A stretch of 64,000 bases of DNA from Mesostigma viride (Eukaryota; Streptophyta; Mesostigmatophyceae; Mesostigmatales; Mesostigmataceae): positions 1,217,167 to 1,281,166 of the forward strand of contig RPFO01000154.1 of assembly GCA_009746045.1 (NCBI GenBank). Reading direction: 5' to 3'. The notes under the pieces are model-generated. The model searched no databases, had not been told where the DNA came from, and saw only the letters and a list, made by a program, of their open reading frames with translations. Below, piece by piece: positions 14,529 through 64,000 of this stretch (its first letter is position 1; every line of letters begins with the position of its first letter). Position numbers and translations under genes: made by a program.

Positions 14529-16392
14529 ATGGTGTTTCTGCCCGCAAATTGCAAGGAGAAAATGTATTTTTCGTGGTGTCATCCCGGCCGTCCTATCTTC
14601 GTGATCGGTATTTTGGCGACCCTCTTCCTTTCTGCAATGTCTGGGGAATGCCTGGCGAGAGATTGGGACTCACAGCATGCGATGGTGGACGCGGTCAGGG
14701 CCTTTTGCCGGTGTGCTGACAACCTGCCCTCTCACAACATCCCGCCAGAACAGCTTTACAAATAGGAGTTGCATGCTACCGACAATCCCTTCGAAAAACT
14801 TATCGGCGGCATGGTGACCTCCCTCGGAATTCGAAGTGCATCGCAAGTTCGGAAGTTTTGCCGGGAAGAATCTGCCCGACTGTCGACCATATCTGGGGGC
14901 TCGGAGGGCAACTGCACCGGTCTGTTCCATATTCAAACCATTCATAATAAAGCTCTTCGAAGCGCCGTCTCTCTAGAGCTGTGCCGGCGAGGCTGGGTCT
15001 ACTGGGACATGCGAAGACCACGCCCCGATAGCATACCTGGGATTGCGGAGTGTGCCGACACGGTTCCGACATTGCTATATAGTCGTTTCGAGGTTCCCTA
15101 CGACCCCGAGCGGGGCTTGCGGGGCCATATCTTTGACATCTATAATTCGCTTCCTGTTAATATAAAGTTGACCGACAAGGGGAACTTGTACAGCAACATG
15201 GTGCAGCGAGCCGCGGGCGTCTCCCCCCAATGCCTGGATTCCGTGTCCGCGGTCCTTCCAAGGACATTTCGGTTGTACGATGCGGAAGAATGCAAGCAGT
15301 TCTTCTCGTCAGAATTAATGAAAGGCGAACCGCGGCGTGACGAAAGGACACATGGGGATCCCGGTCCCAGCACGCGAGACCTTTCCACGGTCGAGGGCCA
15401 TTCATGCCCCTCAGTGGTGGAGGATGTTTCCATGTCTGCAGACATGCAGGCAGTGTGCCAAGATGCCGCGAACGAGACCTGGTGGCTTGTCAAAGTCACG
15501 CAGTCCAACCAGAGCATTTGAAGGTCATGGCATCGTCGTCCCGTCCCTGTACTTCAAACACCTCGAGTCGCCCGGCCCAGCATCCCCATGCATGAGCGGC
15601 GTATGCCAGAACGACAAAGTTGGTTCAGAAGGTCTCGCAGGACGGGACGGGAAGGTGACCCAGAATCGCCTGAGTGCGTACGGCCCCTTTGGCGAGCTCT
15701 GCAAACAGGTCGCTGCCGAGGGCAAGGTGCGGGAGATTGTGACCGAGTACATCCGACCGCCGTTGTTGGTGGAGGGGCGCAAGTTCCACCTGCGCGTATA
15801 CGTAGGGGTCGTCAGTTTCGAGCCGCTGACTGTGTTTTTCCACCCTGGCTATGTAAAGTTTGGCCAGCGGGCGTATGATGACTCTGCCGAGAACGCCTCG
15901 GACCCGTATCGCCACTTCACAAACATCCCCAACCCGTTATCATACGAGGCGAACGTCCTGTGGGCGTATGACGAGCTCGATTGGTACTTGTCTGCGGTGG
16001 CCCGCCGGGTGGCCCCGGGGTATGTGAACGCCACCCTCATGCCGTTGTTGAAGCGGGTGGCCGTGTTTTCGATGCGGCTCCTCCATGCGGTCGTCCCTGC
16101 GGGGCATGAGGGCCGCTTCTACCACGAATACTCGCTTGACTTTTTCCTGGATGACCTGCTCCGGGTCTACCTTTTGGAAATTAATGCAAGAACGGGCACC
16201 CAGCTGGTCGACATGGCTTTCTTCAAGGCCTTCATAAACGCCGTGGAAGACCTGCGAATTGCAATGGAGAGGGGTGTGTGGCCAAGCGAGGTAAATGGAG
16301 GCGCGACGTTGCCAGAGGGGATGGACGTTGGACCGATGGAACTAATCATTTTAAAGGACTGGGACTCAGGAACGCTAGAGGGCTGTGACTGA
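14529..16392 (+). pseudogene. Tubulin-tyrosine-ligase-like protein, intronless, disrupted
   Basis: The frame from ATG 14529 begins with a hydrophobic segment (PIFVIGILATLFLSAMSGEC) like a signal peptide or anchor. It meets an in-frame TAG at 14763-14765, then stays open from 14769 to 15521. It carries LPRTFRLYD and ETWWLVK, matching the 'lP-x-TF-x-L' and 'W-x-vK' steps of TTL ATP-grasp domains. At about 15508-15520 the reading frame shifts by one base. The new frame continues EGHGIVV (ATP-grasp G-x-GI loop), FHLRVYVGVVSFEPL, YHEYSLDFFLDD and YLLEINARTG (metal-ligand E-x-N) to TGA 16390-16392. TTL proteins ligate amino acids to tubulin or other acceptors. The lack of introns, the stop and the frameshift suggest a decayed retrocopy or a transferred gene; a sequencing error could explain one lesion. 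Confidence 0.72.
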
Positions 16393-16899: not shown

Positions 16900-17607
16900 A
16901 CCAACTCACCGCCGCCCCTCTATCTCCTAGACGGCTCTCGAGTCCTGTATCGGGACCGCGTTAAGCTGCTGGGCAGCCTGCTCCCCAGCTGCGAGGTTGA
17001 TGTGGACCATCGCATCTCCCTCGCCTGGCACGCTTTACGCCAGTACCGGGCCCTGTGGCGCAAGCCCCTGGGCAAGATCGAGAAACAGGACCTGTTCAAG
17101 GTCCTCGTGCTTCCTGTTCTCACGTATGGAGCCGAGACGTGGACCCTCACCGCCGACCTGGCCCGCAAGCTGGACGGCGCGGTCACCAGCATGCTGCGTT
17201 CCATTTTCAGAGTAGGATATGCTGCTCATGTCCGCAATGAGGACCTGTACCAGGGCATGCCCTATATCACCAGCACCATTAAGCAACGACGCCTGCAGCT
17301 AGTAGGGCACCTAGCTCGCACCAACCAGGTAGACACCTCACGTGGCCCCCCCACAGGACTGCGACCAGCCCAGCCTGGCCGGCACCTCCTGACGGCTGAC
17401 GTGGGCTGGGCCCAGTGATGTTACGGACGCCGCAAGGCCCGCACCTTCAAAGAACAGCTAGTAGAGGACATGGGGGGCCTAGGCCTCTCCGTGATTTGGA
17501 AGAAGATGATGGACAAGGCCAAGTGGGCCCAGGTCATAGAGGACAACGAGCCCCCCCCAGTGGGGAAGCGCCCGCGTGTGCAATCCCATGGGAGGCACGC
17601 CAGATAG
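16900..17607 (+). pseudogene. LINE reverse transcriptase C-terminal end
   Basis: The frame reads VKLLGSLLPSCEVDVDHRIS, AWHALRQYRALWRK, LFKVLVLPVLTYGAETWTLT, LRSIFRV and IKQRRLQLVGHLAR. This is the classic region after the RT catalytic core in non-LTR retrotransposons (YLG, W, LLYGaEtW, LR-x-I, RRL-x-x-GHL-x-R). A TGA at 17416-17418 interrupts it, but the same frame continues RRKARTFKEQLVEDM and KWAQVIED to TAG 17605. The RT catalytic core and endonuclease are missing, so this is a 5'-truncated dead copy. The 3' sequence runs to a hairpin near 17745-17765 and a GAATT-repeat tail. Confidence 0.85.
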
Positions 17608-35055: not shown

Positions 35056-43947
<8,892 letters not shown>

Positions 43948-45169: not shown

Positions 45170-45415
45170 ATGTTACTTTCTCTGTTCCCGGCCGACTGTG
45201 ATGCTTGCAGGAATTGTGTTACCCCGTCGACCAACTTACGGCCAGTTAACTCAGCTCTGCCTAATGTGTCTGGCCTGCGCGCCCGTTTAAGCTACGGGCG
45301 GCTTGCCGGCTCAGCCAAGCCATGTGAAGGGTTCGTGCCTGTTCCACGTACAAAGTCCGCGTCTCAGGTCTCGCGCACGGTCACTGCGAGTGCTGCTCCG
45401 TCCACCGACAAAAAG
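45170..45415 (+). CDS. PFAS: PFAS exon 1: putative organelle transit peptide
   Basis: ATG 45170 gives 82 residues rich in R, S, A and P ([28 protein letters not shown]) ending at donor AAG then GTAATT. The conserved enzyme starts only in exon 2, so this region is an N-terminal extension. Plant PFAS enzymes carry plastid or mitochondrial leaders, and the composition here agrees. An alternative reading is that CTTGCAG at about 45210 is an acceptor and the true start lies further upstream; the frame would be the same. Confidence 0.6.
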
Positions 45416-48400
45416 GTAATTTCACGTAAACACCCCTATGTGCCGCGTTTCACTGCAAATAGACAAAATAGAATGTCTTGCACAAAGCGTCTGCTTTGTG
45501 CATTGTCCTTTTCGTTGTCCCCGGCCAGGTCAGCTTGTAAGCAAGCAATGCCTCATGTTTTTTCCCGCCCATTGTCCATGCGTCTTCCTTGCCGAGGCAT
45601 TCACATATTTCATGGAACTAGTAGTTTCCACTTTTCCACTTGTGTTCCAGTGATCTGCGTGTGTGCCTTCAAACTATTTATGGCATGGGGTGGCCAGCCA
45701 ATGGGAGGGGGGGGCGGGGGGTGTATTTTTTAGTTCACAGCGTAGAAACTAGTTTTTATTTGATTGCCATCACTTTCACAGCCAGAAAACCATTGTCAGG
45801 CGCATTGCCTCGTTTACTCTTTGGTGCAAAAATGCTTTCTATGGTCCATTCATGTGGGCTGTGTGTTTGGCATTATAGGTGTGCCAGAACTTAACCAGTC
45901 ACCCTTTCCGGTCACCCTTTCTGGTCACCTTTTCTGGTCACCCTTTCTTATCACCCTTTCTGGGCACCCTGTCAGCGCCTCTAAGTTACCAGTCACAGCG
46001 CCTGGACCGCCAGTTTGCCTTGTTGCTTTTATCTTGATGCCTATCCCTCCCCCCTCCCCCCCCCCTCCTCCCCTCCCTACTTTTCCTCACCGATTCCTGA
46101 TCCTAGGCACCAGACTTGTTCCTAATTACGTTGTCAGCTACAAAGTGCTACTTAAAAGTTTCTCAAATGTTTACGCGCCCATGCAGAAAACTAAGCGAAG
46201 TCAAATGCAGACTACCAAACTGAATCTGAATCCTGCTCCCATGCTCCCCATTCTCATCCGCGTTGACGTATCCATTTGCATTCCACCTTACCAGAGCCAA
46301 GCGGTGACGGTGGAGGCCGCGCTGACGTCTAGTAGCGGCGAGCTAATCCACTTGTACCGCCGTCCGTTCCTGGGCGCCAATGCCACGGCGACGCTGCTGC
46401 ACCAGGTGAGGGATGCATACTGCATAACTACCCTTTAGTGGCCGTATTGTTGGCCTTTATATGCCCTATAGTTGCCCTATAGCTGCACCACGTTGCCCTG
46501 CAGTTGCCCTATAATTGCCTTCTAATTTCTCTATGATTGCCCTGCAGTAGCCCCATAGTTTCCCTATGCTTGCCCTATGCTTGCTATGTAGTCGCCCTAT
46601 CGTTGCCCCTTACTTCCCCTATAGATCTGCCCCATAGTTGCCAGGTAGTCGCCATATCGTTGCCCCTTACTTGCCCTATAGATCTGCCCTATACTTGCTG
46701 GATTGACAAGGATGGCCTGTGAAGTTGTTGGTCTGCACATCGGCCTAGTTCTGTGAGACCGTGAAGCGTGCTGTTCGCATCCAAGTGCTAGCTCGTCATC
46801 TGGGCTGTTTGGTTGCAAGAAACGGGGCGGGGTTGGACACTTAAACAAGTACCGGATGGCATGTGCTTGCCTTCCGGCATCGCTCGATCTAAACATGCAC
46901 TTGGCCTTTGCTATACCCTGATTATCCGTCTCTGGGGCCCAGTACATAACCCGAACGATGCGTGATGACACTCTATTCGACCCCGCGCGTGGCCATGCAG
47001 GCACAGAGCCGTGTCTCCAAGGACATCACGGGCATTGACACGGAGCAGGTGGGTGCTACCCCTTTGTCCTCTCTCGGTTGAGAGTGTAGTCCTAATATCC
47101 CTTAAGAAGTCATCAGCTCTTGCAGAAATTTGCGATGATAGGGGGTTGTTGTCCTTTGGCTGGAAATCGACTCAGTGTGCGGACTGAGAGGGGCTGCGTG
47201 GCCCTTCTCTACTTGGTCTCTCTGCAGGGTATACAAAGCTGCCGGGAAGGCAACAGATGCACAAAAAAGTCTCGCCTGAGACCGTGTGTGGTGTGTCAAG
47301 CTCGTAAGACGGGGTGCCCAGCTGTAGGCTGCTGCTAAATTGCAGGTCAGCGATGTGTCCTTATGACGTTCTAGTCGATCATCTGTGCAGGGCAGCGATG
47401 TGTCCTTATGGCGTTATAGTCGATCATCTGTGCAGGTCAGCGATGTGTCCTTATGACGTTCTAGTCGATCATCTGTGCAGGTCAGCGATGTGTCCTTATG
47501 ACGTTCTAGTCGATCATCTGTGCAGGTCAGCGATGTGTCCTTATGATGACGTTCTATTCGATCATCTGTGCAGGTCATTGATGTGTCCTTGTGACGTTAT
47601 AGTCGATCATCGTGCAGGTCAGCGATGTGTCCTTATGACGTTCTATTCGATCATCTGTCGTGACTTTGAATGTTTGGTGGCGGCGCACTTGACATGACGC
47701 TCCTCTCTGGTGTGACACTTGTTTCTTGTGTGGCACGTCACTCTTGACGTGGCGCCCACTGGCTCCCCGCCCTCCCTTCCATCCAGCCCTTTCTCTGCAG
47801 CGCTACGACGCAGAGGTGTCTCACAAGTCCAACAGTTTTTTACCTCACTCTCCACCGGACGTGTAGTTTTGCACCCGCTCATGCCCCCCACACAATCCTC
47901 CCTATGTGCATTGCTTGAACACGGTGTTCTCTCGCGAGTCTTGAACCTCAAGCTGCACTGACTACGGATTATCCTTGCACCTGCTGGTGGCCCCCCTCGC
48001 CTGCATCCTTCCCCGTACGACTCCCAGTGCTACAACGTGGATGTCTCGCGGCCCCTCAACAAGGAGCAGGCGGCCAAGGTCGCGTGGCTGCTGCGCGAGA
48101 CGTTTGAGCCGGAACTGCTGACGCCCGCAACCTCCTTCGCCAAGCCCGGCGGAAATGGTGGGTGGCACGCGTGCATCGCAGGCTGTGCGGCATGCACATC
48201 GATGAAACAACCCGCGCAGGCCGGAAATTGGGAGAATATACCATGCCTCTTCTCCGTGATTGGTTGTGCAGCGCTCGGCAGAAAACTTTTGCTGGCTGGA
48301 CATTTTGTTGGCTGGAGGCCGACTGGCACTTTGGTTCAATAATTATGTAAGCTTGGGGTGGCGTCAGGCCATCTATGTAGCTGTCATCCAGCTATCCCGG

Positions 48401-51400
48401 GCGTCACTATTTGCCTTGCCATGCCCTTCCCTCTTCCTTTTAATCACCCCTGCCCGCTTTCCCCTAGAAGGGAGCCTTCGTAAACATGCCCCCCCTCGCC
48501 CCCTCCTCCGTCTTCCCCCTCCTCCGTCTCCCCCCCCCCTCCTCCCCCTCCACCCCTCCTCCCTTCCCCCCCCCCCCCCCCCCCCCCCCCTCCTCCCCTC
48601 CCCTCCTCCCTCTCCCCCCCCTCCCCCCCGTCTTACGGCTTTGCAAGGCAACTCCCTCGGTGATCATCTTCGTCCCCTCCCCGCATTGCGTTCAACACCA
48701 ATGGCTCTGTTATCATTTTTTGTCGCGTAATCATGCAATTGACACCTCTCCCGTGCTACTTTTCCTCCCTCCGGGTGTGCAGAGGTGATCATCGAGGTGG
48801 GCCCCCGCATGGCGTTCACCACCGCGTGGTCCACCAACGCTGTCTCCATCTGCAAGTCGTGCGGCGTGGACCCCGTCACACGCATCGAGCGCTCGCGGCG
48901 CTTCCGCCTCACGTCACGCCGACCGCTCGCGCAGGACGAGATCACTGCATTCGCCGCGCTGGTGAGCGAGGGGCGTTCAGAGATGCTGGATGGGTAGAAG
49001 AGGAGTATGTTGTCAGACGAGTAGAGGAATGTGTTATAAGAGGGCGGAGAGGGTCTTGTGTGCAGATGCTGGATGGGTAGAAGAGGAGTATGTTGTCTGA
49101 CAAGTAGAGGAATGTGTTATAAGAGGGCTGAGAGGGTCTTGTGTGCAGATGCTGGATGGGTAGAAGAGTAGTAGGTTGTCAGACGAGTGGAGGAATGTGT
49201 TATAAGAGGGCGGAGAGGGTCTTGTGTGCAGATGCTGGATGGGTAGAAGAGGAGTATGTTGTCTGACAAGTAGAGGAATGTGTTATAAGAGGGCGGAGAG
49301 GGTCTTGTGTGCAGATGCTGTATGGGTAGAAGAGGAGTACGTTGTCAGACGAGTAGAGGAATGTGTTATAAGAGGGCGGAGAGGGTCTTGTGTGCAGATG
49401 CTGGATGGGTAGAAGAGGAGTATGTTGTCTGACAAGTAGAGGAATGTGTTATAAGAGGGCGGAGAGGGTCTTGTGTGCAGATGCTGGATGGGTAGAAGAG
49501 GAGTATGTTGTCTGACAAGTAGAGGAATGTGTTATAAGAGGGCGGAGAAGGTCTTGTGTGCAGATGCTGGATGAGTAGTAAAGGAGTATGTTAGGGGAGT
49601 AGAGGAAGAAGAGGGTGGAGAGGATCTTGTGTGCATGACGAGTAGAAAAGGAGTACATCAGAGGGGAGAAAAGGAAGGAAGGTATTAGAAGAATGCAGAG
49701 AAGGTCTTGCGGGGGCGAAGGCTTAAAGGCCAAGGAGGGTCTCGGGTGTGAGTGGTTTAATAAGGATTTGTCAAGAGAGGGCAGTGTTTCTGTATATCTG
49801 TTATGTAGCTTCGCTCGAATGTGGTATCAGCTCCCGCGGTTATAAGCTGTCCGTTCTCATCTGTCCACTGATTCTCCGCCCCGTCACTGCCACCACTACT
49901 GAATTCTTTAAATGGCACGTTTGGAACAGAATCCTGTAGCTTTCTTGGCCCGCGGTCTCCTCATTGCCATCTGCCCACCTTCCCATGGATGTACTGTTGC
50001 CTTTCCATCGCGGCCAGGTGCACGACCGCATGACCGAGTGCCTGTACCCCAAGCCGCTGCCCGCGTTCACCGTGGACGCGACACCTGCCCCCGTGGAGCT
50101 GGTCCCGGTGATGGCTCAGGGCATCGACGCGCTGCGCGCCATCAACGACAAGATGGGGCTGGCCTTTGACGAGTGGGACCTGCAGGTGTGCACGGAGAGT
50201 AGTAGACAGGGGGGGGGGAGAGTTCAATGGCCGGTAAGATAGTCAAAACTTCTTCCATCAGCAATGGACAGTGCTGGCCTTTGACGAGTGGGACCTAGAG
50301 TAGACGAAGGTGACCTAGAGTAGATCCTGCTAACTTTACTGCCATGTTCCTCTCCTCACTTGATATGTCCGTCTTCATCACCCCCCCCCCCCCTTTCTTT
50401 CATGTTCAGTACAGTACTACACGCGCCCATTCCAAATGCTTTGCTGTTAGTCATACGTTTGTGCCTTTGTTCTTGACATTTTCCTCCTCTGCCACCCTCA
50501 CTATCCCACTACCTAGCCACCATTACTCACGACCGCGGTACTGCACATGCCTCTCCTTGATGATGTCATCACCATCACATATCTGCCTTTGCCCTGTATT
50601 TATCTCTTCCTCCCTTTATTCTTCCCCACCCCTCTCTTCCTCTCACAGTACTACACCCGTCTCTTCCGCGACGACATCAAGCGCGACCCTACCACGGTGG
50701 AGCTGTTTGACATGGCGCAGTCCAACAGCGAGCACAGCCGGCACTGGTTCTTCAAGGGTGGGATGGTGATCGACGGGGATAAGAAGAGCGAGACGCTGAT
50801 GGACATCGTGCGCGACACGCTGGACGCCAGCCCGCACAACAGCGTGATCGGGTTCAAGGACAACAGCAGCGCCATCCGGGGGTAAGGGCATTCAGGGAAG
50901 GTTGCGTTTCCACGATTGGACGATGTGGGTGTGGGACTGGAGATGTGGCAGCTACGTGCAGTGTGGGTTCAAGGAAAACCGCAGCACCAGTTCCAAGGTA
51001 GAAGGCAGGGGGGAAGCTCAAATGGGGTGCACTTACCTGGTTAGAGTACATGCTGGATGCCAACCCGCACAACAGCGTGATCGGGGTTTCAAGGACAACA
51101 GCAGCGCCATCCGGGGGCGAGGAGGGCACGATCCTGGAGGGGGAGGGGGGGGAGAATGGTAGAGGACGGTGGTTATGGGGCTGCAAGGTGGTGCATTGGC
51201 GTCATGGATGCGCTTGCATGGTTCCCGTGACTGTGGCGGTCATACATTAGTACGGGGTACACCACCCTCATGCCTATTTTGTCTCAAGGCGAATAGCCCC
51301 GTTTGAGAGTAAGGAGTGATGGTGGTTGAAAGCGTAAGTATATTTTTTCGGAGCAGTGGATCTATGCGTCTGCGAGCAGTGGACTTGTGTCATCTACTTT

Positions 51401-54400
51401 CGCCCATTCAGCCTTGCTCTCATGGCCCTCGGTGCCGTACGCCCCCCTCCCAGTCTTACGTGTCGTCCTACCCCTGCTTTTTCACTCATGCCTCGCCCCC
51501 CTGTCCTCTCCATGAAGCCCTGAAAAATTCCCTGTCTTAACCCTCCGTTTACCGTTCTTCCTCCTCTTCCCCCCCCCCCCCCCCCTCCCGCCCCACCTCA
51601 CCCATCCATGTACTTCGCCTCCCCGCCCCCCCTTAAACCCCCTTACGCCCTCCTGATCCACCCCCCCACCTCCACCCCCCCCAGTGGCCCCATCTCTGTG
51701 CTGGTCCCGAGCGAGCCCGGCAAGCCGTGCGCGCTTAAGGCGGCCCCCAAGGACTACGACCTGCTGCTCACGGCCGAGACGCATAACTTCCCCTGCGCGG
51801 TCGCGCCGTACCCGGGCGCTGAGACCGGCGCGGGTGGTCGTATCCGGGACACACACGCGACCGGGCGCGGGTCGATGGTGATCGCGGCCACCGCCGGGTA
51901 CTGCGTGGGCAACCTGCAGGTGAGATAGGGGTCGTGCTTCTCTAATTCCTCGGGGTGGTGTGATGTGCATCCGTGGCCTGGCATTTGTCCTGCATTCGCA
52001 ATTTGTTTCGCAAGAGCGTTCTGCGGTAGTTCCCCGTTGGTTGTGGAGATGTCCGTGGCCTGCCAGGGGATGTCAGTGGCCTGCATATTTTCCCCTTTTT
52101 TTCCGTACGATGGTTATAGAATCCTGCCGATGTTCTTAGTATCCTGCCCACCTTGCCAACGCGCCCCGCACAGGCCAAGTACGGGTATAACTTTGAGCAG
52201 AGATGCATCGCAAGCAATCCCCTGGGCACCGTCTCTGCCCGTTTGTGTTCCTTTTAGCCTCGCTTATTGTCCCCGCTAGGGAGTGCAGCCCATGCACAAG
52301 AGTACAGACTTGCACGCTAGGAATAGCTTGAGTTTTTGTTTTCCCTTTTTTTCCCTCCGTTGGTCCCCCCCTGGAATGCCCCCCGCCTGTAGATCCCCCC
52401 CATTCTCACGCCCCCCATCTCATGCCCTTTTTCTCATTCCCGCCCCCCCCCCCCCCCCCCCCCGTCCCGCAGATCCCCCAGTACCCCCAGCCGTGGGAGC
52501 ACCCCGAGTGGGTGTACCCGCCCAACCTGGCATCCCCCCTCCAGATCCTGATCGACGCGAGCAACGGCGCGTCCGACTATGGCAACAAGTTTGGCGAGCC
52601 GCTCATCCAGGGCTACACGCGAACGTTCGGAATGCGCCTCCTGAATGGCGAGCGCCGCGAGTGGCTCAAGCCCATCATGTTCAGCGCGGGCGTGGGCCAG
52701 ATCGACCACACCCACCTGGAGAAGGCGGAGCCTGAGATCGGCATGCTCATCGTCAAGGTAAGTGGGTGTTGAGGTTGTAAATAGTTCTTTGTTTAATATG
52801 TGTAAGGGAAGGGTTCTACGTGATTATTTAATCCCATTTTAGTCAGCTTCTCCTTCCCCCATTTCCCCCCATTTTCCAATATTTGATCCACCCTTTCTCC
52901 CCCCCTTCTCTCTTGTCTGTTATCTCTTCTCCTTCCCCCCCCCCCCCCCCCCCGCCTCTTTACTCCATCGCTATCTGATCGGCAGCCCTGCTTGTTAGCT
53001 TGTTTTTGTCTTTTTCTCTTCCACCCACTCCTGGCCACCCACCAAAACACCCACCCCCATTGCTTGTCGTCTTTCCCCCCGCCCCCACCCCATTGCTCGT
53101 CATCTCTTTTGTCCCCCCCCATCCCACGCAGATTGGCGGCCCTGCCTACCGCATCGGCATGGGCGGCGGCGCGGCGTCCAGCATGGTGAGCGGGACACGC
53201 GACGCGGACCTGGACTTCAACGCGGTGCAGCGGGGCGATGCTGAGATGGCGCAGAAGCTTTGGCGCGCCGTGCGTGCGTGCGTGGAGCTGGGGGATGCCA
53301 ACCCGATCGTTAGCATCCACGATCAGGTAGGGGAGGTTGATTGCTCAGGTAGAGGAGGTTGATCCTTCACCTGCGATCAGGTAGGGTAGGTTGGTTCTTC
53401 ACCCACGATCAGGTTGGGTAGGTTGGTTCTTCACCCACGATCAGGTAGGGAAGGGTCGTGTTTCTTCCTATCTTTTCTCTGTTTTTTTGTTTTAGTTCTT
53501 CACTGGATCGCTACGGGTGTGTTCTCCTTTCAGTACATACTTTGTCTCCTTCAGTACATACTTGGCCCCGTCAGTACATACTTATCATCGTCAGTGCAAA
53601 CTTGTCTAAATCCCGCAAACTTGTCCTTTCATCTTTTCATGACGCACCTTGTGTCTAGCCTTTTTGTACGGGTCAGCGCCCTAGACATCGTGAGCATGGC
53701 CAGGTTGATCTCTTTTGTAGCTGCTGTTGTCCGTGCTTTTCTTTGCCACGGTTAGAGCAAGTTACATCCACAGTTTTCCTTGTCGCTCTCCGCTGTTGAG
53801 CGTATGTGCATGGATACGTGCGCCCGGGCCACATGCTTGTCAACATCACTAATACAACAAGTGGGACCTTTGCTCTTCCTTGTACTTTTCCTCGTGCTGG
53901 TGAGCCCGCATGGCTAGGTGCATATGCCCGCGCCACATGCTTGTCAACGTCAGCAATGATGGAGGTTACACCGGTGGACTTTCATGTCCCTCGTTGATGG
54001 CAAATCTGCGTGACTGGGTGCGTGTGCCAGGGCCACATGCTTGTTTGTTCATGGTACTTACGAAGTCAGTTGCGCCGCTCTTCTCTCTCGCCCCTTGTAC
54101 TTGTGTGCACCAGGGCGCGGGCGGCAACTGCAACGTGGTCAAGGAGATCATCTACCCGCAGGGTGCGGAGATCGACATCCGCAAGGTGCCCGTGGGGGAT
54201 ACTACAATGTCTGTGCTGGTGAGTAAAGCTCATGACCAAAGCTCATCAAGGGTGTGAGTAAGGCACTTCAAGTACCATACACATACAAGGTGAGTAGGTC
54301 ACTCCAAGGCCGCAAATGGTGCTCCTCTCATATCCTTGCTGGTGAGTAGGGCTCGTGACGGATGCGGGTGATTGTTTCCTTCATGTCGGTGCCGGTGGGT

Positions 54401-55579
54401 GGGGCTCGTCAAGGCTGCTCGAGTAGTTTTATCCATGGTTGGTGCGTGTGAGCAACAGTCGGCTCAGAGTCGGGGAGTAGTGGTTGTGTCCTTGGTGTGG
54501 GTGAGCAACAGCACAGCTCACCCAGGCTGTCAGGTAGTTTTATCCGGTACGTTAAGTAGGCGTACGATGTGCAATTCTTCTTGGAATTCGCTGCTGCCAT
54601 ACGCATCTCTGAGTTGTCATATCTGTTTAGCTTCTTCTCGTTCTTCGCTCCCCACTCATGTCCTCCTTCTATCCATGAGACAACCACTGTCCTTATGTGT
54701 CCTCTCTTCCCTTTCTTGCTATCGTGCCCTCTTGTCTGGCGTCCTCAGGAGATCTGGGGCGCCGAGTACCAGGAGCAAGACGCGCTGCTGATCAAGGTGT
54801 GTGGTAAAAAACACTTTGGTTTCTTATGGTGGTACAAGGGAGGAGGGACAAGGGGAGGAGCATGATGCACCGATCATCAACGTGCGTGGTCACCAACACT
54901 TGGTTTCTCACGGTGGTACAGGGGAGGAAGGGAAAGGGTGGGGAAAGGGCGCGCGACTGATCCAGGTGCGTGGGGGCTGTACAAGGGGGTTGAAGAGGAT
55001 AGAGAGGGGGGAGGGGGGGGAGTGAACAGGGGAGAGCGGAGAGGGGAGAGGGAGAGGGAGAGGGGAGAGGGAGAGGGGAGAGGGGAGAGGGAGAGGGGAG
55101 AGGGGAGAGGGAGAGGGGAGAGGGAGAGGGGAGAGGGAGAGGGGAGAGGGGAGAGGGGAGAGGGAGAGGGGAGAGGGGAGAGGGGAGAGGGGAGAGGGGA
55201 GAGGGGAGAGGGGAGAGGGGAGAGGGGAGAGGGAGAGGGAGAGGGGAGAGGAGAGGGAGAGGGAGAGGGAGAGGGGAGAGGGGAGAGGGGAGAGGGGAGA
55301 GGGAGAGGGGAGGGGAGGGGGAGGGGGGAGGGGGGAGAGGGGAGAGGGGAGAGGGGAGAGGGAGAGGGAGAGGGGAGAGGGGAGAGGGGAGAGGGGAGAG
55401 GGAGAGGGGAGAGGGAGAGGGGAGAGGGGAGAGGGAGGGAGAGGGGAGAGGGGAGAGGGGAGGGGAGGGGAGGGGAGGGGAGGGGAGGGGGAGGGGAGGG
55501 GAGGGGAGGGGGAGGGGGGGAGGGGAGGGGAGGGGGAGGGGGGGGGGGGAGGGGAGGGGGGAGGGGGGAGGGGAGAGGG

Positions 55580-55643
<64 letters not shown>

Positions 55644-55646
55644 GGG

Positions 55647-55690
<44 letters not shown>

Positions 55691-58600
55691 GGGGGGAGGG
55701 GGAGGGGGAGGGGGGAGGGGGGAGGGGGGAGGGGGAGGGGGGAGGGGAGAGGGGAAGCGGGAGAGGGGAGAAGTGTAGTGTAAGAGGAGAGGGGAGAGAG
55801 ATTCCCCAAGCAGGAAGAAGGGGGGATAGAGCACGCGGGATGTCAATGATCAGCAGAGACATGGACAGCCAGTGCCTGCAGAAAGGAACAAGAGGGGTCC
55901 TTGACGCCCATGGAAGCCCATGCGCGGTTGTCAGTACACGGAGTCATGTGCACGCACCCTTATGTGTCCATCACAGCTCTTTTGTTGCACTTGTCATTTG
56001 TTTCACTTGTCATGTAAGAACAAATGCTGCCTCCCGAGACAGCCATCTCCTTCCTTGCCTTGGGTATCCGTCCGATGGATGCGATGTCAAGACCCTTTAG
56101 AAGTCTCTACGCACGACTCTTAGCAGGCAAATTTCAATAAATCTTCAAGTTCCATTTTAATTTCCCATCCACCACGCTTACCGACGTTCTGGTCCGCACC
56201 CATGTATGCTTCCCGATCCTAGTCCGGCCTGGTCGCTGCTTCGTTTCCGCTTTTGGTAATGATTCCTTGCCCTCGCCTTCACCCTTGTTCCCGTCCCTAT
56301 GATCATCATCACTATAACAACTCATGATTGTGTCCCCGTCCGTGCCGCCCATCGCTTGGTTGCTTGCAGCCGGAGAGCGAGGCCCTCATGCGCGCCATCT
56401 GCGAGCGTGAGCGTGTGACCATGGCCGTCATCGGCACCATCAGCGGCAGCGGTGAGCGGGTGCTATCTATATACCAAACCTTCCCATAAAGAATTACCGG
56501 CAGCTGTGGGTAGGCATGTGTCAAGTCTTAAGTATTGTAGTCGCGGCAGCAGTGAGTGGCTACCTGCGTAATTCCGGCAACTCTTACAGTACCCCCCTTG
56601 TGCATCGCATTAGCAGCAGCAGGGAGGTTTACCTCTTGCGTCCGTTAATACCATACCAGGTCCATTTTTACCTCCCACCCACCCACCAACCCACCCGCCC
56701 ATCCACCCACCCACCCACCCACCCGCCCATCCACCCACCCACCCACCCACCCACCCACCCACCCACCCACCCACCCACCCACCCACCCACCCACCCACCC
56801 ACCACCCACCCACCCACCCACCCACCCACCCACCCACCCACCCATCCACCCACCCACCCACCCACCCGCCCATCCACCCACCCGCCCACCCACCCACCCA
56901 CCCACCCACCCACCCACCCACCCACCCACCCACCCACCCACCCACCCACCCACCCACCCACCCACCCACCCACCCACCCACCCACCCACCCACCCACCCA
57001 CCCACCCACCCACCCATCCACCCACCCACCCACCCGCCCATCCACCCACCCACCCACCCACCCACCCACCCACCCACCCACCCACCCACCCACCCACCCA
57101 CCCACCCACCCACCCACCCACCCACCCACCCACCCACCCACCCACCCACCCACCCACCCACCCACCCACCCATCCACCCACCCACCCACCCACCCGCCCA
57201 TCCACCCACCCACCCACCCACCCACCCACCCACCCACCCACCCACCCACCCACCCACCCACCCACCCACCCACCCACCCACCCACCCACCCACCCACCCA
57301 CCCACCCACCCACCCACCCACCCATCCACCCACCCACCCACCCACCCGCCCATCCACCCACCCACCCACCCACCCACCCACCCACCCACCCACCCACCCA
57401 CCCACCCACCCACCCACCCACCCACCCACCCACCCACCCACCCACCCACCCACCCACCCACCCACCCACCCACCCACCCATCCACCCACCCACCCACCCA
57501 CCCGCCCATCCACCCACCCACCCACCCACCCACCCACCCACCCACCCACCCACCCACCCACCCACCCACCCACCCACCCACCCACCATGTCCTTTATCCT
57601 TCATGTTTGGCATGCAACGACCCCCCCACCCCCCACCCCACCCCAAGGTAAGGTGGTCTCCCGCGACTCGCCCCATTACTCATGCATGGCCCGGGCCCCC
57701 CCATCTTATATCGTGCATATCCGCACCCCCCCGACCCCCAGGCAAGCTAGTCTTGCGCGACTCATTTTTTCGCTCACTTTTAAACCTGTCCCCACACATT
57801 TTATTTCCTTACACTCTGCCCCTCCCCCCCCCAAGGCAAAGTCGTCCTGCACGACTCATCCCATTCCTCACAGTATATCCTTAACATGTGCAACAAACAC
57901 ACACACGTGCACACACAGGCAAGGTGGTCCTACGCGACTCCATCGAGGAGGAGCGTGCGGCCGCCGAGAAGCGCAAGCCATTGGTTGCGGTCGACCTGGA
58001 GCTGGAGAAGGTGCTGGGCAGCATGCCACAGAAGACGTGAGTGGTTACGGTTGGTAGGAGCGTGGCATGATCCCCCTAGTGGTCGTTGCGGTGGTGGTTG
58101 TTATAGGTGCTGGTTGTAGTTGGTGTGGCCGGTGCTGGCAGCGGTAGTGGAGCGTTTCGTGGATCGATGGCAAGAGAGGTTAGGCTGTTTTTTCCCTCCG
58201 GTTGGTGCCCTCTCCTTGTTAACAAAGTCTCACCCACCTAGTACCCCTACCCCTACCATATTCCGACGTTACAATTTACACAACTGCAACCTGGTCTAGC
58301 CCGCACCAGATCCTTGCTACGACGACCCGCACGCTGCCCCATGGGCTACACTAGCCCGCGCTATAACCATGCGCTATAGTGAACCTCATGGAATCTGCGT
58401 GACAATGACACACACCATGTTGCCCTGTGATGTGATGACGCACCTGAATGATATCATGATATATTCCTACTACTGTTATGATACTAGTATAATGATAGTA
58501 GTACTGTAGTATAATTATAGTGTGATAGTGGTACTGTAATGTAATGATAGTATGATAGTGGTATAATGACACACATTCAAGCCATGCTACCCCAACCCCC

Positions 58601-59335
58601 CGCCTACACGGAGACCCTTTGCTCTGGTACTGGCGACCCGCACTTAACTGAACAGCACTATTAACTGCCCTTACTGTATAACCTTGTGCAACAATATAAT
58701 GACAACGCCCCGCAGCTACACGTTCACCCACCGGCCCGTCGAGTCCGCCCCCATCGCCCTCCCGCAAGGCACGTCGCCGGCCGATGCGCTCGCCCGCGTG
58801 CTGCGGCTCCCCGGCGTGGGTTCCAAGCGCTTCCTCACCAACAAGGTGGACCGCTCCGTCACCGGGCTGGTCGCGCGCCAGCAGTGCGTTGGGCCGCTGC
58901 AGCTGCCGCTGTCGGACGTGGCGGTGATCGCGCAGGTAGGGAGTGGGGGCGCTTTTTCTATACCATTTGTGGATGTAAGCCTAAGTGCAGGGCTGTTTTG
59001 GGTGAAGGGATCATGCCAGCTGTCGGGCCCTGCCATCATGGTGCAGGTAGAAATGGGAAGCACCCTTCCCCTTCTGCATAGCGTTCTTTGAATAACATTC
59101 TATTTTTTGGATATAAATCTAGCTGTCATCATGGGGGCGGTGGTGTCTTCAAGTCAGGTTACATGTATGGGACGTACCAAACATGTGTGGAGGGCATGGC
59201 ATGACATACGTACCCCTATATGCCGCCCCTCCCACCCCACACACCCCACCAGAGCCACATGAGCACCACTTGCATCGCATTTACTCGGACATACCTTACC
59301 TACACACTCCCCCTCCCCCATTTACCCCATCTCTG

Positions 59336-59366
<31 letters not shown>

Positions 59367-61260
59367 CCCCCTTTGATCACCCCCACCAGAGCCACATGAG
59401 CACCACCGGCATCGCATTTGCCATCGGCGAGGCGCCCATTAAGGGCCTGCTGGACTCCAAGGCGATGGCGCGCGTGGCGCTAGGGGAGGCGCTGACCAAC
59501 CTCGTGTGGGCGCGCGTGAGCGGGCTGCGCGACATCAAGTCGTCAGGCAACTGGATGTACGCTGCCAAGATGGAGTACGAGGGGGCCGTCATGTTCGACG
59601 CCGCCGTCGCGCTCCGGTGAGGAGGTGGTGATGACATTATACCCTAACAACATGCAGACCAGAATGGGCTATGATGCTCATGCGGTGGTCGCCCTCCGTT
59701 GAGGTGGTTGTGATGTATGCTAGCATTCATCATCTTGAATTGCCGTATGCCAGCATTAAAAAAAAGCCGTTGCCTCTACGACCACCCACCCACCACGCTT
59801 GCCCGGCCATGCAACATCCACCATACTTGTCCCGTAGCAAGTATTCTCCATCACGCAGTATGATATATACTAGTATGGTGGGGCGGCAGCAAAGGAGGCC
59901 AGGAGATTGCACTAGTACTATCTACAGGGTTGTCCGGCAGCACAAGTATTATACATACTCTAGAGGCCAGGAGAGTGGGGCATAGATCCACGAGTACCGC
60001 ATGCTGCACCCACCACCCACGGTGCCCCTCACCGCCTGTTTGTGTGTATCGAGGCGATGGCCACCCTGGGCATGTTCCAACACATGCATGCTCCACATGC
60101 ATGCTCCCTGGGTGTGGTCCCACCACTTATGCATACGGCACCCACCAATTCACAATACACCTATCGCCACCTGTCACGCAGGGAGGCCATGATCACGCTG
60201 GGCGTGGCCATCGACGGCGGCAAGGACAGCCTGTCCATGGCCGCCAAGGCGGGAGGCGAGGTCGTCAAGTGCCCGGGAAACATGGTCATCTCCGCCTACG
60301 TGGGATGCCCGGATATCACTGCCACCGTCACGCCGGACCTCAAGCTGGGTGACGACGGGCGGCTGCTACTGGTGGACATCGCTCAGGGCCGGCGCCGGCT
60401 GGGTGGCTCCGCGCTCGGCCAGGCGTACAGCCAGGTGGGTGGTTTACTTTACTGGCATTGTGAACGGCGAACTTTCAGCGTTGTGAGTGGTAAGTGTACA
60501 GCCAGGAGGACGGCACGTTGGCAGGTATGTGAATGGTGAGTTTTACAGCCAGGTCTCCCGATTGACTCCCTAGTTGGGTGACTCAGTGCCCCTAATTCAT
60601 GCACCTTTGGTGTGACCCTTATTCGTGACCCTTGTTCACCCCCCTTCTTCATGCCCTTATTCGATCCAATTGTTCATTGCGTTTGCTCATGCCCCTTATT
60701 CATCCCACCCACCCACCCTTGTTCTTCCCCTCTTCCCGCTCTTCTCCCCACAGCTGGGCGACACGGTGCCCGACAACGACGACTGCTGACTCCTGTCCAC
60801 GTTTGCCCGTGAAAAAAGCAGAACTCTCAATTCAATTTTGTCACACCTGTGCCCGCTGCTGACTCGTGTCTCCTAGGCACCTCCCCCTTCTCCTTTTGTT
60901 CCCCTATTCCCGCTCTTCTCCCTATTCCCCCTGTTCCCCCTATTCTCCCTATTCCCCCTATTCTCCCTATTCCCTCTATTCCCCCTATTCCCCCTAATCC
61001 CCCTATTCCCCCTCTTCTCCCCCCAGCTGGGCGACACGGTGCCCGACATGGACGACCTGGCAGTCATGCGCTCCGCGTTCGAGACCACGCAGGGCCTGAT
61101 CGCGGCCAAGAAGATCTCGGCGGGCCACGACGTGAGCGACGGCGGCGTGGTGACTAGTTTGCTGGAGATGGCGTTTGCGGGCGACTGCGGGATCGACGTG
61201 GACCTGCCTGTCACGGGGAGCAGCGCGGATGGGAAGGAGAGCCAGGTGTTCCGGTACGTT

Positions 61261-61356
<96 letters not shown>

Positions 61357-64000
61357 TTTTGCGGGGGTGATGGGGGTCGCTGAGGTGTTGCGGTGGGGGG
61401 CAGGTGTTCCGGTACGTCGGTGTGATTCTTTGCGGGGCTTGGAAGGAGGCGTTTGGTGGGGGGTTGCGAGGTATGTTTTGGGGGCCTTTGGGTGTGGGGT
61501 GTGGTGGGTATGTGGGCTCTCAGAAGGGGCAGGGGGAGGAGACATTTTGAGGTCTAATTAGGGCTTTGGGATGGGACGAGGGGGGGGGGGGGGGGGATCG
61601 GGGACGTGTGTGGCTTATCGAGTGTGGGTCTGCAGGATAAGGCTGTTTGTGCCTTGGGCTCTGATGGACGGTTTGTGCCTGGTTGTTTCTTTGGCTGAAA
61701 TGGTGCGATGCAAGCAAGCTAACATGGTTGCATGTTCCGCGTTATCAACACAATTCACAATCCCGCCATTAAACCATGCACAATCCCGATATTAACACCG
61801 TGCTGTGATGATGGTTAGAGCTCTGCCCTCACCTTTTCTCTTTCCCTCGCGCCGTGTCACTGTGTGTGGATGGCGGCATGGGGTGTGCTATGCTTGCTCC
61901 GCGGCCCCTTGGGTGACGTCTGACAGGACGCTCTTTGCCGAGGAGCTGGGCCTGGTGATCGAGGTGTCATCTGCCAACGTTAAGGAGGTGAGGCCACGCG
62001 CTGGATGAGGCATGCTTGATGAGCTATTCGCGCATTTAGTTGCGAGATAGGTACATTTCGGCGGGCTCAAAGGGGTTCAATCTGCCGCCTGTAGCAAAGC
62101 TCTATCGTACGTCACTTGAACGATGTGAGGTGCTTGTGCTACATACGACTAGATTAGCGGGGGGCAGTTGTTGCGCTGGTACTAGTGCCTACTGTCACCC
62201 GTGCCTGCCCTTTTGTTGTGCTCGTATGAGTGCCAAAGAGGGGGCCGCGGCGCCTTGATGCCATGTGATCTGTGATGCATGTGCACACATATCTAGGGTG
62301 GTGCGGTGAACGTAGGGAGGCCTTGTTGCAGCTTTTTATTTTCCTGCAGCACACCTCCGTTCAGCCCTTCTGTGCCTCATTTCCAGATGGGCCGATGCCA
62401 TGGGTATCTGGTATCAACCTAAGTCTTGGCTCTTTGTGTGGCAGAGGTTATGGACGCATTTAGACGTTGCTCACGTCAGGCCATGGCTGTTTCCTACACC
62501 CTGCCACGCATGTCACGGCCACGTCCAATACCCTATTTACATGGAGCCATGCACGCTCTGCACCTTGTCACCCTGTCGCCTTGTTTCCTTGTGTGACGCA
62601 GTTTATGGCCGCGTTCTACTCCTTATTCGCCTTCAGCCATCTCGCTCTGCACCTTGTCCCCACGACCTGTCTCTCGTTCATAGGTCATGGCTGTGTACGC
62701 CCCTTCAGTCCTTTACCGCTGTCTCATCCACCTTGCATGTCCCTTGTTTCCTTGTGTGGCGCAGGTCATGGCCGCGTACGCCAGCAAGGGTGTGCCCTGC
62801 CTGAGCATCGGCCGCGTGCGCAAGGCCAAGGGGCCTGGCTCAGTCAAGGTGGCGGTCGGCGGCAGCGCCGCCATCCAGGTGAGCCGGCGCTCGAGCGTGA
62901 TCTCCCAACCAGAGGGTGAATGCCAACATTTGATCTGGTTCATCCATTGGTTTATTCACTTGTTTATCCACCATGTGGAGGGCAGAGCGTGATCCCCCAG
63001 CCAGCAGGTGCTTGGGAATTCGGTTTCGAGGTAGTGCTGCTAACACCACGTGTGAATTCGAATCGATTTTAAAAGTTTTTGTTCACACTTAAACTGAAGT
63101 TAACATCCAGTGCTGAAGTACGTTCTTTGCAAGGTGTCCCCTGTGCATGTGCTACCCCGTGTTCCCCTGTGTTCGTTGCGGTTGGTGTTGGTAAAGCAAA
63201 GCTTTCTTTGGGACTTTCTCTTTTTTAGGTATATGGAGGGGGTGGAGTGCGCTGTGCCTTTTGTCACCTGCTATTGCTTTCCTTCACGTTTTCTTTTTCC
63301 CCCGTCCTTCCCCGTAGCTTGCCCCTCTGTGCCTTAGCATGGCCTGGTTTTTACTGGAGTTGTTTCCTCGTGAGCGCTCTTTGCCACCATGGCCTATCCC
63401 ATGCCTATGCCTTGACTCACTTATCGCTCCTTCGTGGATTTGGCGTTGTGTTGCACAATGCACGCCTAATCCACTTCAAGCTCTCTCTCCTTGCCACGGG
63501 AGGGGGTTGCACACGCCTCCCGCCAAGACGACGTGGCGGCCCTGCGCGTCTACCCTTGTCTATACTTGCACGCCTACACTAGTTGTTCTTGTCCCTACTA
63601 AACTCGTCTCTTTCTCCTGTCGTAAAAGTTGCGTGGTCTTGCCTTATGCTGGCCCTCTCTTGTCGTCGGGACCGCGCTCGTATCATCAACCTCCCTCTCT
63701 CCTTGTCGTCGGCGTTGCACTCCTGTCATTAACCTCTCCCTCTCGATTTCGCGCCGCCGTTCCCTCCCCGACAGGACGACGTGGTGGCGCTGCGCGATGT
63801 GTGGGAGGAGGCGAGCTTTGTGCTGGAGACGTTCCAGGCCAACGAGGCGACCGTCAAGGAGGAGAGGGAGGGGCTCAAGAAGCGCCACGGTGAGGGGACC
63901 CCCTTAGGTTCTAATCATAAGATAAATACCAGTAATAAGACTAGTAAAAATTAGAATACACGGGTGAGGGAGGGGCTCAAGCAGCGCCACGGTGAGGGGA
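45170..64000 (+). CDS. PFAS: Phosphoribosylformylglycinamidine synthase, 21 exons, 3'-truncated by window
   Basis: This enzyme converts FGAR, ATP and glutamine to FGAM, the fourth step of purine synthesis. Exons: 45170-45415, 46295-46405, 47001-47048, 48028-48157, 48783-48961, 50018-50185, 50649-50881, 51685-51919, 52473-52757, 53132-53326, 54114-54218, 54749-54796, 56370-56451, 57919-58036, 58716-58935, 59390-59616, 60182-60434, 61027-61253, 61927-61987, 62765-62878, 63775-63889. All 20 introns are GT-AG and every phase fits, giving 3,400 coding bases (about 1,133 residues). Landmarks: ELIHLYRRP (PurS-like part), [37 protein letters not shown] then [95 protein letters not shown]. The class-I glutaminase domain lies beyond 64000. 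The first exon is basic and Ser/Ala-rich, as in an organelle leader. Confidence 0.95.
46442..46700. repeat. Degenerate TTGCCCTATAG repeats in PFAS intron 2
   Basis: About 15 loosely spaced copies of GTTGCCCTATAG and CTTGCCCTATAG variants. Confidence 0.75.
47341..47665. repeat. 45-bp minisatellite in PFAS intron 3
   Basis: Seven units of GTCAGCGATGTGTCCTTATG, ACGTTCTAGTCGATCATCTG, TGCAG. Each unit boundary reads TGTGCAG then GTCAG, a combined acceptor/donor-like CAGGT. Confidence 0.95.
48530..48628. repeat. C-rich tract in PFAS intron 4
   Basis: Poly-C and CCTCC runs, including an uninterrupted C run at about 48567-48590, roughly 150 bases before the exon 5 acceptor. Confidence 0.9.
48982..49640. 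repeat. 83-bp minisatellite in PFAS intron 5
   Basis: GATGCTGGATGGGTAGAAG occurs at 48982, 49065, 49148, 49231, 49313, 49397, 49480 and, varied, 49563. The array starts 20 bases after the exon 5 donor. Units differ by single substitutions, such as ACGAG/ACAAG. Confidence 0.95.
55007..55790. repeat. GGGGAGA tract with long poly-G in PFAS intron 12
   Basis: (GGGGAGA)n and (GGGGA)n pass into an almost unbroken poly-G region (about 55588-55690), then back to GGGGGA. The whole tract is G-rich on the sense strand and would form G-quadruplexes in the pre-mRNA. It encodes only Gly/Glu/Arg or Pro/Ser frames. Confidence 0.97.
56674..57586. repeat. (CCCA)n array of about 0.9 kb in PFAS intron 13
   Basis: About 225 tetranucleotide units. 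A variant block with CCCGCCCATCC recurs at about 56865, 57032, 57192, 57345 and 57501, giving a higher-order period of 153-167 bp. Confidence 0.97.
60890..61020. repeat. CCCCCTATT repeats before PFAS exon 18
   Basis: About twelve CCCCTATTC/CCCTATTCT units make up the pyrimidine-rich DNA just before the exon 18 acceptor. Confidence 0.85.
61260..61354. repeat. (GT)n microsatellite in PFAS intron 18
   Basis: About 45 GT dinucleotides begin a few bases after the exon 18 donor (CCG then GTACGTTG). Confidence 0.97.

Follow-up and report, generated by a model that had tools for sequence, protein, structure and literature searches.

Intronic minisatellites are built of head-to-tail direct units, and introner elements are repeated sequences within introns that appear as near-identical introns at many sites. 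Zhuo et al. in 2007 reportedly linked human introns to tandem arrays, in a study that, going by its title, concerns the origin of introns. For the novel introns of Drosophila (PMC2891723), a segment containing splice signals was duplicated in tandem, and in the potato RdRp case (PMC4974935) the segment duplicated in this way crosses an intron–exon boundary. The introns of Mesostigma viride are long, with a mean of 1142 bp, and repeats make up 30% of the intron space, according to a genome report on this species (PMC6947507). Here we describe copies of exon edges, hereafter echoes, inside the existing introns of this alga.

The PFAS gene and the comparison genes

The window, that is the whole stretch of 64,000 nucleotides analysed, carries on its plus strand the PFAS (FGAM synthase) gene, of which exons 1-21 lie at 45170..63889 and which extends beyond the window end. 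Translation of exons 1-21 gave residues 1-1133 of protein P0001 (jgi/Mesvir1/5187/Mv15320) with zero mismatches, and the joined exons 6-21 matched P0001 at 100% identity over 895 aa. Head-to-head with PFAS, about 1.6 kb away, is a DPH2-like diphthamide gene on the minus strand (predicted exons 35072-43535; PF01866, E=6.5e-61). The window also contains a fragment of the tubulin-tyrosine ligase family (PF03133) at 15325-16389, and the reading frame at 16930-17196 resembles what we take to be the end of a retroelement reverse transcriptase.

For comparison, an arbitrary 200-kb stretch of the same genome was fetched separately. Two annotated genes were found in these 200 kb, encoding a HAC-type histone acetyltransferase (P0121), the exons of which were mapped except for residues 1-47, and sphingosine-1-phosphate lyase (SPL; P0241). 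PFAS, HAC and SPL, all annotated, form the three-gene pool with 40 donors and 40 acceptors. The set used for permutation consists of 54 introns from five genes, in two of which, the DPH2-like gene and one further gene (the fourth gene), the exons were predicted in this analysis. The exon predictor recovered exactly 20 of 21 exons of PFAS, 10 of 14 of HAC and 5 of 8 of SPL, these three genes being also its training set. Two further segments entered no count: 40 kb upstream of HAC (C1 1.96-2.00 Mb), in which only retroelement-looking frames were recognized by eye, and 40 kb of C2 with zero predicted gene chains. A severe low-complexity mask, employed early, left 17 donors and 11 acceptors, with echoes at a score of at least 11 in five and two of them, respectively; a milder mask was used afterwards.

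Echoes of exon ends in PFAS introns

A first-pass annotation of this DNA had proposed that the ends of PFAS exons plus their donors are repeated inside the following introns, and all the exon-end echoes that it named were located by alignment, partly by eye. At a score of at least 11, a copy of the exon end was identified in its own following intron at 10 of the 21 PFAS donors. All the echoes described for PFAS lie on the plus strand.

The end of exon 6 (source 50158-50181) recurs at 50273..50296 with 24 of 24 bases identical (score 24 versus at most 10.5 in other introns). The true end of this exon is 50185 (CTGCAG/GT), not 50181, and in the copy the final four bases of the exon are missing, as is the donor. 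The end of exon 7 (source 50815-50882) recurs at 51048..51117 with 93% identity over 70 columns and with GC as the donor; the two substitutions and the 2-base insert noticed earlier were confirmed within the shorter span considered then. A second, weaker echo of exon 7, absent from that annotation, lies at 50965..50989 (88% over 25; source 50850-50874). Within 50815-51117, the longer exon 7 copy looks young, yet it stops at the junction, is unrelated to its source beyond that point and does not fit a simple tandem unit.

Three echoes of the exon 10 end and donor are located at 53374..53454 (53374-53386, seen by eye, 53400-53424 and 53432-53454), inside a 32-bp tandem array that adjoins the donor (TRF array 53345-53454). 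For exon 11, the end and donor recur at 54337..54348 with 12 of 12 bases identical, a borderline case with a score of 12 versus at most 11 elsewhere. The two echoes of the exon 12 end and donor (54856..54890 and 54950-54973) belong to an 84-bp array detected by TRF at 54771-54973, which begins within exon 12. Exon 13 has an echo of its end and donor at 56543..56559 (score 12), which had been overlooked. The echo of the exon 16 end at 59688..59708 carries TT in place of the donor GT. Two short echoes of the exon 17 end are present at 60496-60509 (GA) and 60544-60554 (GT), with scores of 11.5 and 11.0. The end and donor of exon 18 are repeated at 61401..61417 (17 of 17 identical), past a (GT)n run, and those of exon 21 at 63963..64000 (score 32-33), where the window end cuts the copy. 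The description of an echo as exon end plus donor thus fits several copies, but GT is missing in those of exons 6, 7 (GC) and 16 (TT) and in the first of exon 17 (GA).

Simple repeats are also present in these introns. An 83-bp minisatellite with 7.4 copies (48981-49592) starts about 20 bp past the exon 5 donor, and its unit contains no exon sequence as judged by eye. Intron 12 includes a very long purine (GAGAGGG-like) simple repeat at 55004-55771, intron 13 a simple repeat of CCCA x 228 at 56674-57586, and intron 18 a (GT)47 run at 61262-61355 that almost adjoins the donor.

Echoes of exon starts in PFAS introns

The acceptor side, which the first-pass annotation did not mention, gave a similar picture: the start of the next exon is copied in the preceding intron at 8 of the 20 PFAS acceptors at a score of at least 11, and at 6 of 18 in the permutation set at a score of at least 12. 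The start of exon 5 recurs in intron 4 at 48659..48699 (score 16-17), where AG is lost, and that of exon 7 in intron 6 at 50411..50433 (score 13; best in other introns 12). Three echoes of the exon 14 start, at 57646-57669, 57739-57763 and 57834-57857, have scores of 14-15, keep AG and are separated by steps of about 83-94 bp. The exon 16 start is found again in intron 15 at 59244..59282 (39 columns at 95%, score 34), and the exon 18 start in intron 17 at 60751..60783 (33 bases, score 28). A weak echo of the exon 17 start, without AG, is located in intron 16 at 60051..60074 (score 11.5; best in other introns 11). The exon 20 start has three echoes, 62435-62457, 62590-62614 and 62682-62701, with scores of 13, 17.5 and 15 and offsets of 318, 163 and 81 bp, respectively. 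Finally, the exon 21 start is repeated in intron 20 at 63519..63548 (score 20), with AG changed to AA.

Tandem arrays and ladders of copies

The clearest case of an echo is intron 2 of the DPH2-like gene, which opens with a 79-bp tandem array (41658..42466, minus strand; TRF, 10.2 copies). Predicted exon 2 contributes its final 10 nt to the first unit of this array. The exon end plus donor occurs 11 times, the real one counted, at a spacing of 79-80 bp, with the donor 9-mer identical in 11 of 11. Donors 2 and 3 would lead to a frameshift if used, and read-through from exon 2 meets a stop about 210 nt in. At a score of at least 12, this gene has echoes at four of seven donors and at none of seven acceptors.

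Ladders of copies were also observed in the annotated genes. Donor copies in HAC intron 12 lie at 131, 253 and 372 bp, in addition to a weak copy at 61, and acceptor copies form ladders in PFAS intron 13 (83, 177 and 271 bp) and intron 19 (81, 163 and 318 bp). Direct units arranged head-to-tail with a near-constant period, as in minisatellites, make up the arrays of DPH2-like intron 2 and PFAS introns 10 and 12, and each of the remaining echoes, outside arrays, is represented by one or a few diverged copies.

Excess of echoes in the own intron

In the three-gene pool, 16 of 40 donors have an echo at a score of at least 11 in their own intron, versus 34 of 1560 comparisons with other introns (about 2%); for acceptors the numbers are 13 of 40 and 28 of 1560. 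When the score was raised to at least 13, echoes remained at 11 of 40 donors and 11 of 40 acceptors, versus a single match in 1560 comparisons with other introns on each side. Split by gene at a score of at least 11, PFAS contributes eight of 20 donors and as many acceptors with echoes to this pool, HAC 7 and 3 of 13, and SPL 1 and 2 of 7, respectively. The fourth gene, for which exons were predicted only, has echoes at 0 of 14 junctions. The exon-edge echoes in introns are real and above chance.

Comparison of junctions with other positions in introns

Probes of 40 nt were slid over the exon–intron border in one search direction. Matches in the own intron peaked at the donor (14 of 37), fell to 0 of 31 at 80 nt inside the exon, and amounted to 22 of 147 at 60-140 nt into the intron (8-18% depending on position). 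Exon-interior probes stayed at background (3 of 222 in the own versus 7 of 888 in other introns), and intron-body probes, searched in both directions, matched the own intron in 123 of 563 cases versus 12 of 2252 for other introns. Duplication is thus common also inside introns away from junctions. Strong copies, with a score of at least 20, are as frequent in the intron body as at junctions (38 of 430 versus 8 of 73, p=0.5), whereas at a score of at least 12 junctions are in excess (25 of 73 versus 93 of 430, p=0.02).

For the permutation, random 48-nt windows were drawn within the same introns, intron by intron. Donor echoes at a score of at least 12 numbered 18 of 52, versus 10.0 expected (p=0.0015); at higher scores the difference narrowed to 9 versus 5.3 (at least 16, p=0.045), 6 versus 3.4 (at least 20, p=0.08) and 3 versus 2.5 (at least 24). 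Acceptors showed no significant excess at any score, with 11 of 49 versus 8.4 expected at a score of at least 12 (p=0.17) and fewer than expected at a score of at least 16. Intronic GT sites with a strong consensus were employed as another control. Against the 18 of 52 donors (0.35), echoes were found at 71 of 167 such sites when pooled, a rate that is inflated because arrays add sites, and the per-intron mean of 0.23 stays below that of donors. After the nine consensus bases were neutralised, the rate for donors decreased to 6 of 53 (0.11), versus 63 of 167 GT sites and a per-intron mean of 0.21, and the central donor peak in the sliding test shrank from 13 of 36 to 8 of 36.

The tests of junctions rest on fifty-odd introns, a small sample. 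Within this sample, the suggestion that junctions are special is not supported: random windows drawn from these introns have copies about as often, and acceptors are without significant excess. It had been stated beforehand that a junction rate no higher than the intron rate would speak against the proposal; such a rate was found for strong copies and for acceptors, whereas weak donor copies keep an excess, which is largely explained by the splice consensus. We consider it likely that frequent local tandem duplication takes place throughout introns, that the copies are neutral afterwards, and that no junction-specific process is needed.

Two readings give the exon edge a larger role. In one of them, which we hold to be unlikely, exon edges would seed tandem arrays, and introns would grow outward and fill with copies of their own donors and acceptors, up to eleven identical donors; for correct splicing, the position of a site (first donor, last acceptor) or the exon context would then have to count, not the sequence of the site, and some echoes might perhaps be used. 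In the other, exon–intron borders would be preferred sources of duplication, for instance through breaks linked to transcription or splicing, again with introns growing outward from their edges. The own-intron peak centred on the donor, the donor excess in the permutation, the plain-scored donor rate, which exceeds the mean that matched GT sites show per intron, and single junctions with several copies (PFAS exon 7, HAC intron 12) all point to such targeting. It is nevertheless distinctly unlikely, since acceptors are without significant excess, the donor excess is non-significant above score 16, donors drop under matched GT sites once the consensus is neutralised, and the central peak shrinks at the same time. 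Because of the permutation and consensus controls, a junction hot spot was rejected as the leading reading.

Orientation and spacing of the copies

Junction echoes at a score of at least 12 are direct at 25 of 73 junctions and inverted at 0 of 73; at a score of at least 11, inverted echoes occur at 2 of 73, near the rate in other introns (55 of 2847). Among repeat pairs inside introns, 46 are direct, 25 of them from two PFAS arrays, and none is inverted. A strictly tandem arrangement is seen in 14 of these 46 pairs; in 28 the tract spans less than half the offset, although units that lie far apart in the same array are also scored as spaced. Repeat pairs in bases 1-44000 of the window number 46 direct and 13 inverted. 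Local duplication was detected outside genes in 16 of 168 search windows of the same bases, versus 4 of 143 at a 5-kb gap, and in the 200-kb stretch in 91 of 674, versus 22 of 611 at a 5-kb gap.

Source and copy are 0.72 alike in the exon part, a value that drops to 0.49 at the beginning of the intron and to 0.34 deeper inside it, against a null of 0.21, and in 18 pairs of copies the exon-like parts are 0.70 alike and the intron-like parts 0.39. Both comparisons are biased because the copies were chosen by exon similarity. A frozen exon with two decaying intron copies would yield such a falling gradient.

The earlier inference that tandem-type duplication recurs over exon–intron borders and that its products survive when they stay in the intron agrees with the direct copies, the near-constant ladders and the background level of exon interiors. 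Instead of tandem duplication, the copies might be templated insertions made in break repair (polymerase theta-like, 20-70 nt from nearby DNA). Some copies, among them those of the ends of PFAS exons 6 and 7 and of the start of exon 16, are bounded tracts of 24-70 nt that lie farther away than their own length, which is the form expected of such insertions; the 28 of 46 direct pairs with a tract shorter than half the offset point the same way. Polymerase theta-type templated copying is, however, expected to give copies in both orientations, and the absence of inverted echoes at a score of at least 12 and of inverted pairs in introns makes templated repair insertion quite improbable as the source. 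Direct orientation together with raised local duplication fits better with tandem duplication, whether through slippage or through unequal exchange. Several observations run counter to the favoured reading: some young copies, such as that of exon 7 and a similar one in HAC intron 13, stop at or near the exon end and are without the intronic flank expected of a simple tandem unit; 28 of the 46 direct pairs are spaced in the sense given above; exon-like parts are more alike than intron-like parts between the copies, chosen as these were by exon similarity; weak copies are in excess at junctions, and donors exceed matched GT sites per intron, under plain scoring; intergenic DNA does have inverted pairs, the 13 in bases 1-44000; and one sampled gene has no echoes at its 14 junctions.

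Strength of the copied splice sites

The splice signal is part of the duplicated unit, and the donor or acceptor is kept in many, not all, of the copies. Of the 22 tabulated donor copies (identities 0.77-1.0), 13 have an unaltered GT. For the three genes, 14 of 21 donor copies score at least 5, a level reached by 95% of real donors; GT is present in 17, nine of which score lower than the corresponding real donor, and if used, all 17 would lead to a stop or a frameshift. Among the 16 acceptor copies, 12 retain AG and 8 an acceptor score of at least 4, and use of those with AG would result in a stop or a frameshift in 12 of 13. The exception is the acceptor copy 81 bp upstream in PFAS intron 19, which keeps the frame without a stop but is a weak site (3.1 versus 8.5). 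Strong-consensus GTs are plentiful, 167 being counted within 45 introns.

The proposal that echoes could supply decoy donors accordingly holds with respect to the strength of many copies, but strong GTs are available anyway and the 17 GT copies would all give a stop or frameshift if used; use of the copied splice sites is unsupported. It is very improbable that the echoes are selected decoys, retained for a regulatory effect of additional donors or acceptors on the splicing or expression of these genes. The retained donor and acceptor scores, the in-frame though weak acceptor copy of PFAS intron 19 and the 11 identical donor 9-mers of the DPH2-like gene would agree with selection; against it, the donor is gone from several copies, nearly all the copied sites would give a stop or a frameshift, strong GTs abound in these introns, and the identity of the DPH2 donors is a property of the whole young array unit. 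That the echoes are chance matches or assembly errors is scarcely conceivable: the shortest ones (exons 11 and 17) are close to the background maximum, but the own-intron excess at a score of at least 13 is large (11 of 40 versus 1 of 1560), the copies are mostly diverged (identity of 0.77-1.00 to the source), unlike assembly duplicates, and echoes recur in genes of the separately fetched 200-kb stretch.

Discussion

Frequent local tandem duplication, the reading preferred here, would act as follows. Introns of M. viride would undergo frequent short-range, orientation-preserving (tandem-type) duplication, with copies typically 30-370 bp apart, and the duplicated units may sometimes be amplified into minisatellite arrays. 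Replication slippage or unequal exchange is the probable molecular step. Whenever a unit overlaps an exon edge, an extra edge with a donor or acceptor would be left in the intron, tolerated because the intron is removed by splicing, copy included; the edge copies would then decay, presumably neutrally, the annotated or predicted sites being taken as those spliced. Copies of exon edges are more conspicuous than other intron repeats because selection freezes the exonic source and the splice consensus adds matches.

Such duplication may offer a simple route for intron lengthening and for the build-up of decoy splice sites in an early-branching streptophyte. The first-pass annotation had considered the duplications a possible step in intron growth or gain. 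Of the two, growth is plausible, although the greater median length of introns with echoes (795 versus 676 bp) is not significant (p=0.087); intron gain from these duplications is unsupported. DPH2 intron 2, with its eleven identical donors, and PFAS intron 18 are natural test cases for the choice of the spliceosome among identical sites. A caution follows for gene prediction and for studies of intron gain: in this genome an exon edge and its intron can be expected to resemble each other even if no process acts specifically at junctions.

In a literature search over titles and the starts of abstracts, with few subscription journals covered, no report was found that treats intronic echoes of exon edges as a class. 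Introner elements resemble the present case in being repeated sequence within introns, and were rejected as an explanation, as the edge probes, on which the comparison was made, match other introns at background (34 of 1560 donor comparisons at a weak threshold). Three arrays are like intronic minisatellites, with units of 79 bp in DPH2 intron 2, 32 bp in PFAS intron 10 and 84 bp in PFAS intron 12. The arrays of DPH2 intron 2 and PFAS intron 12 differ from plain minisatellites in that their first unit enters the exon, so that the units carry an exon edge with its splice site. The Mesostigma arrays sit in existing introns, unlike those of Zhuo et al. as far as the title of that study tells. The potato RdRp and the novel Drosophila introns share with Mesostigma a duplicated segment with splice signals, which in potato spans the intron–exon boundary; the difference is that the Mesostigma copies lie inside existing introns and leave the coding frame intact. 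What is added here is how common edge remnants are in the existing introns of a single alga, at exon ends as well as exon starts, and that the same-intron controls explain most of them without a junction-specific process.
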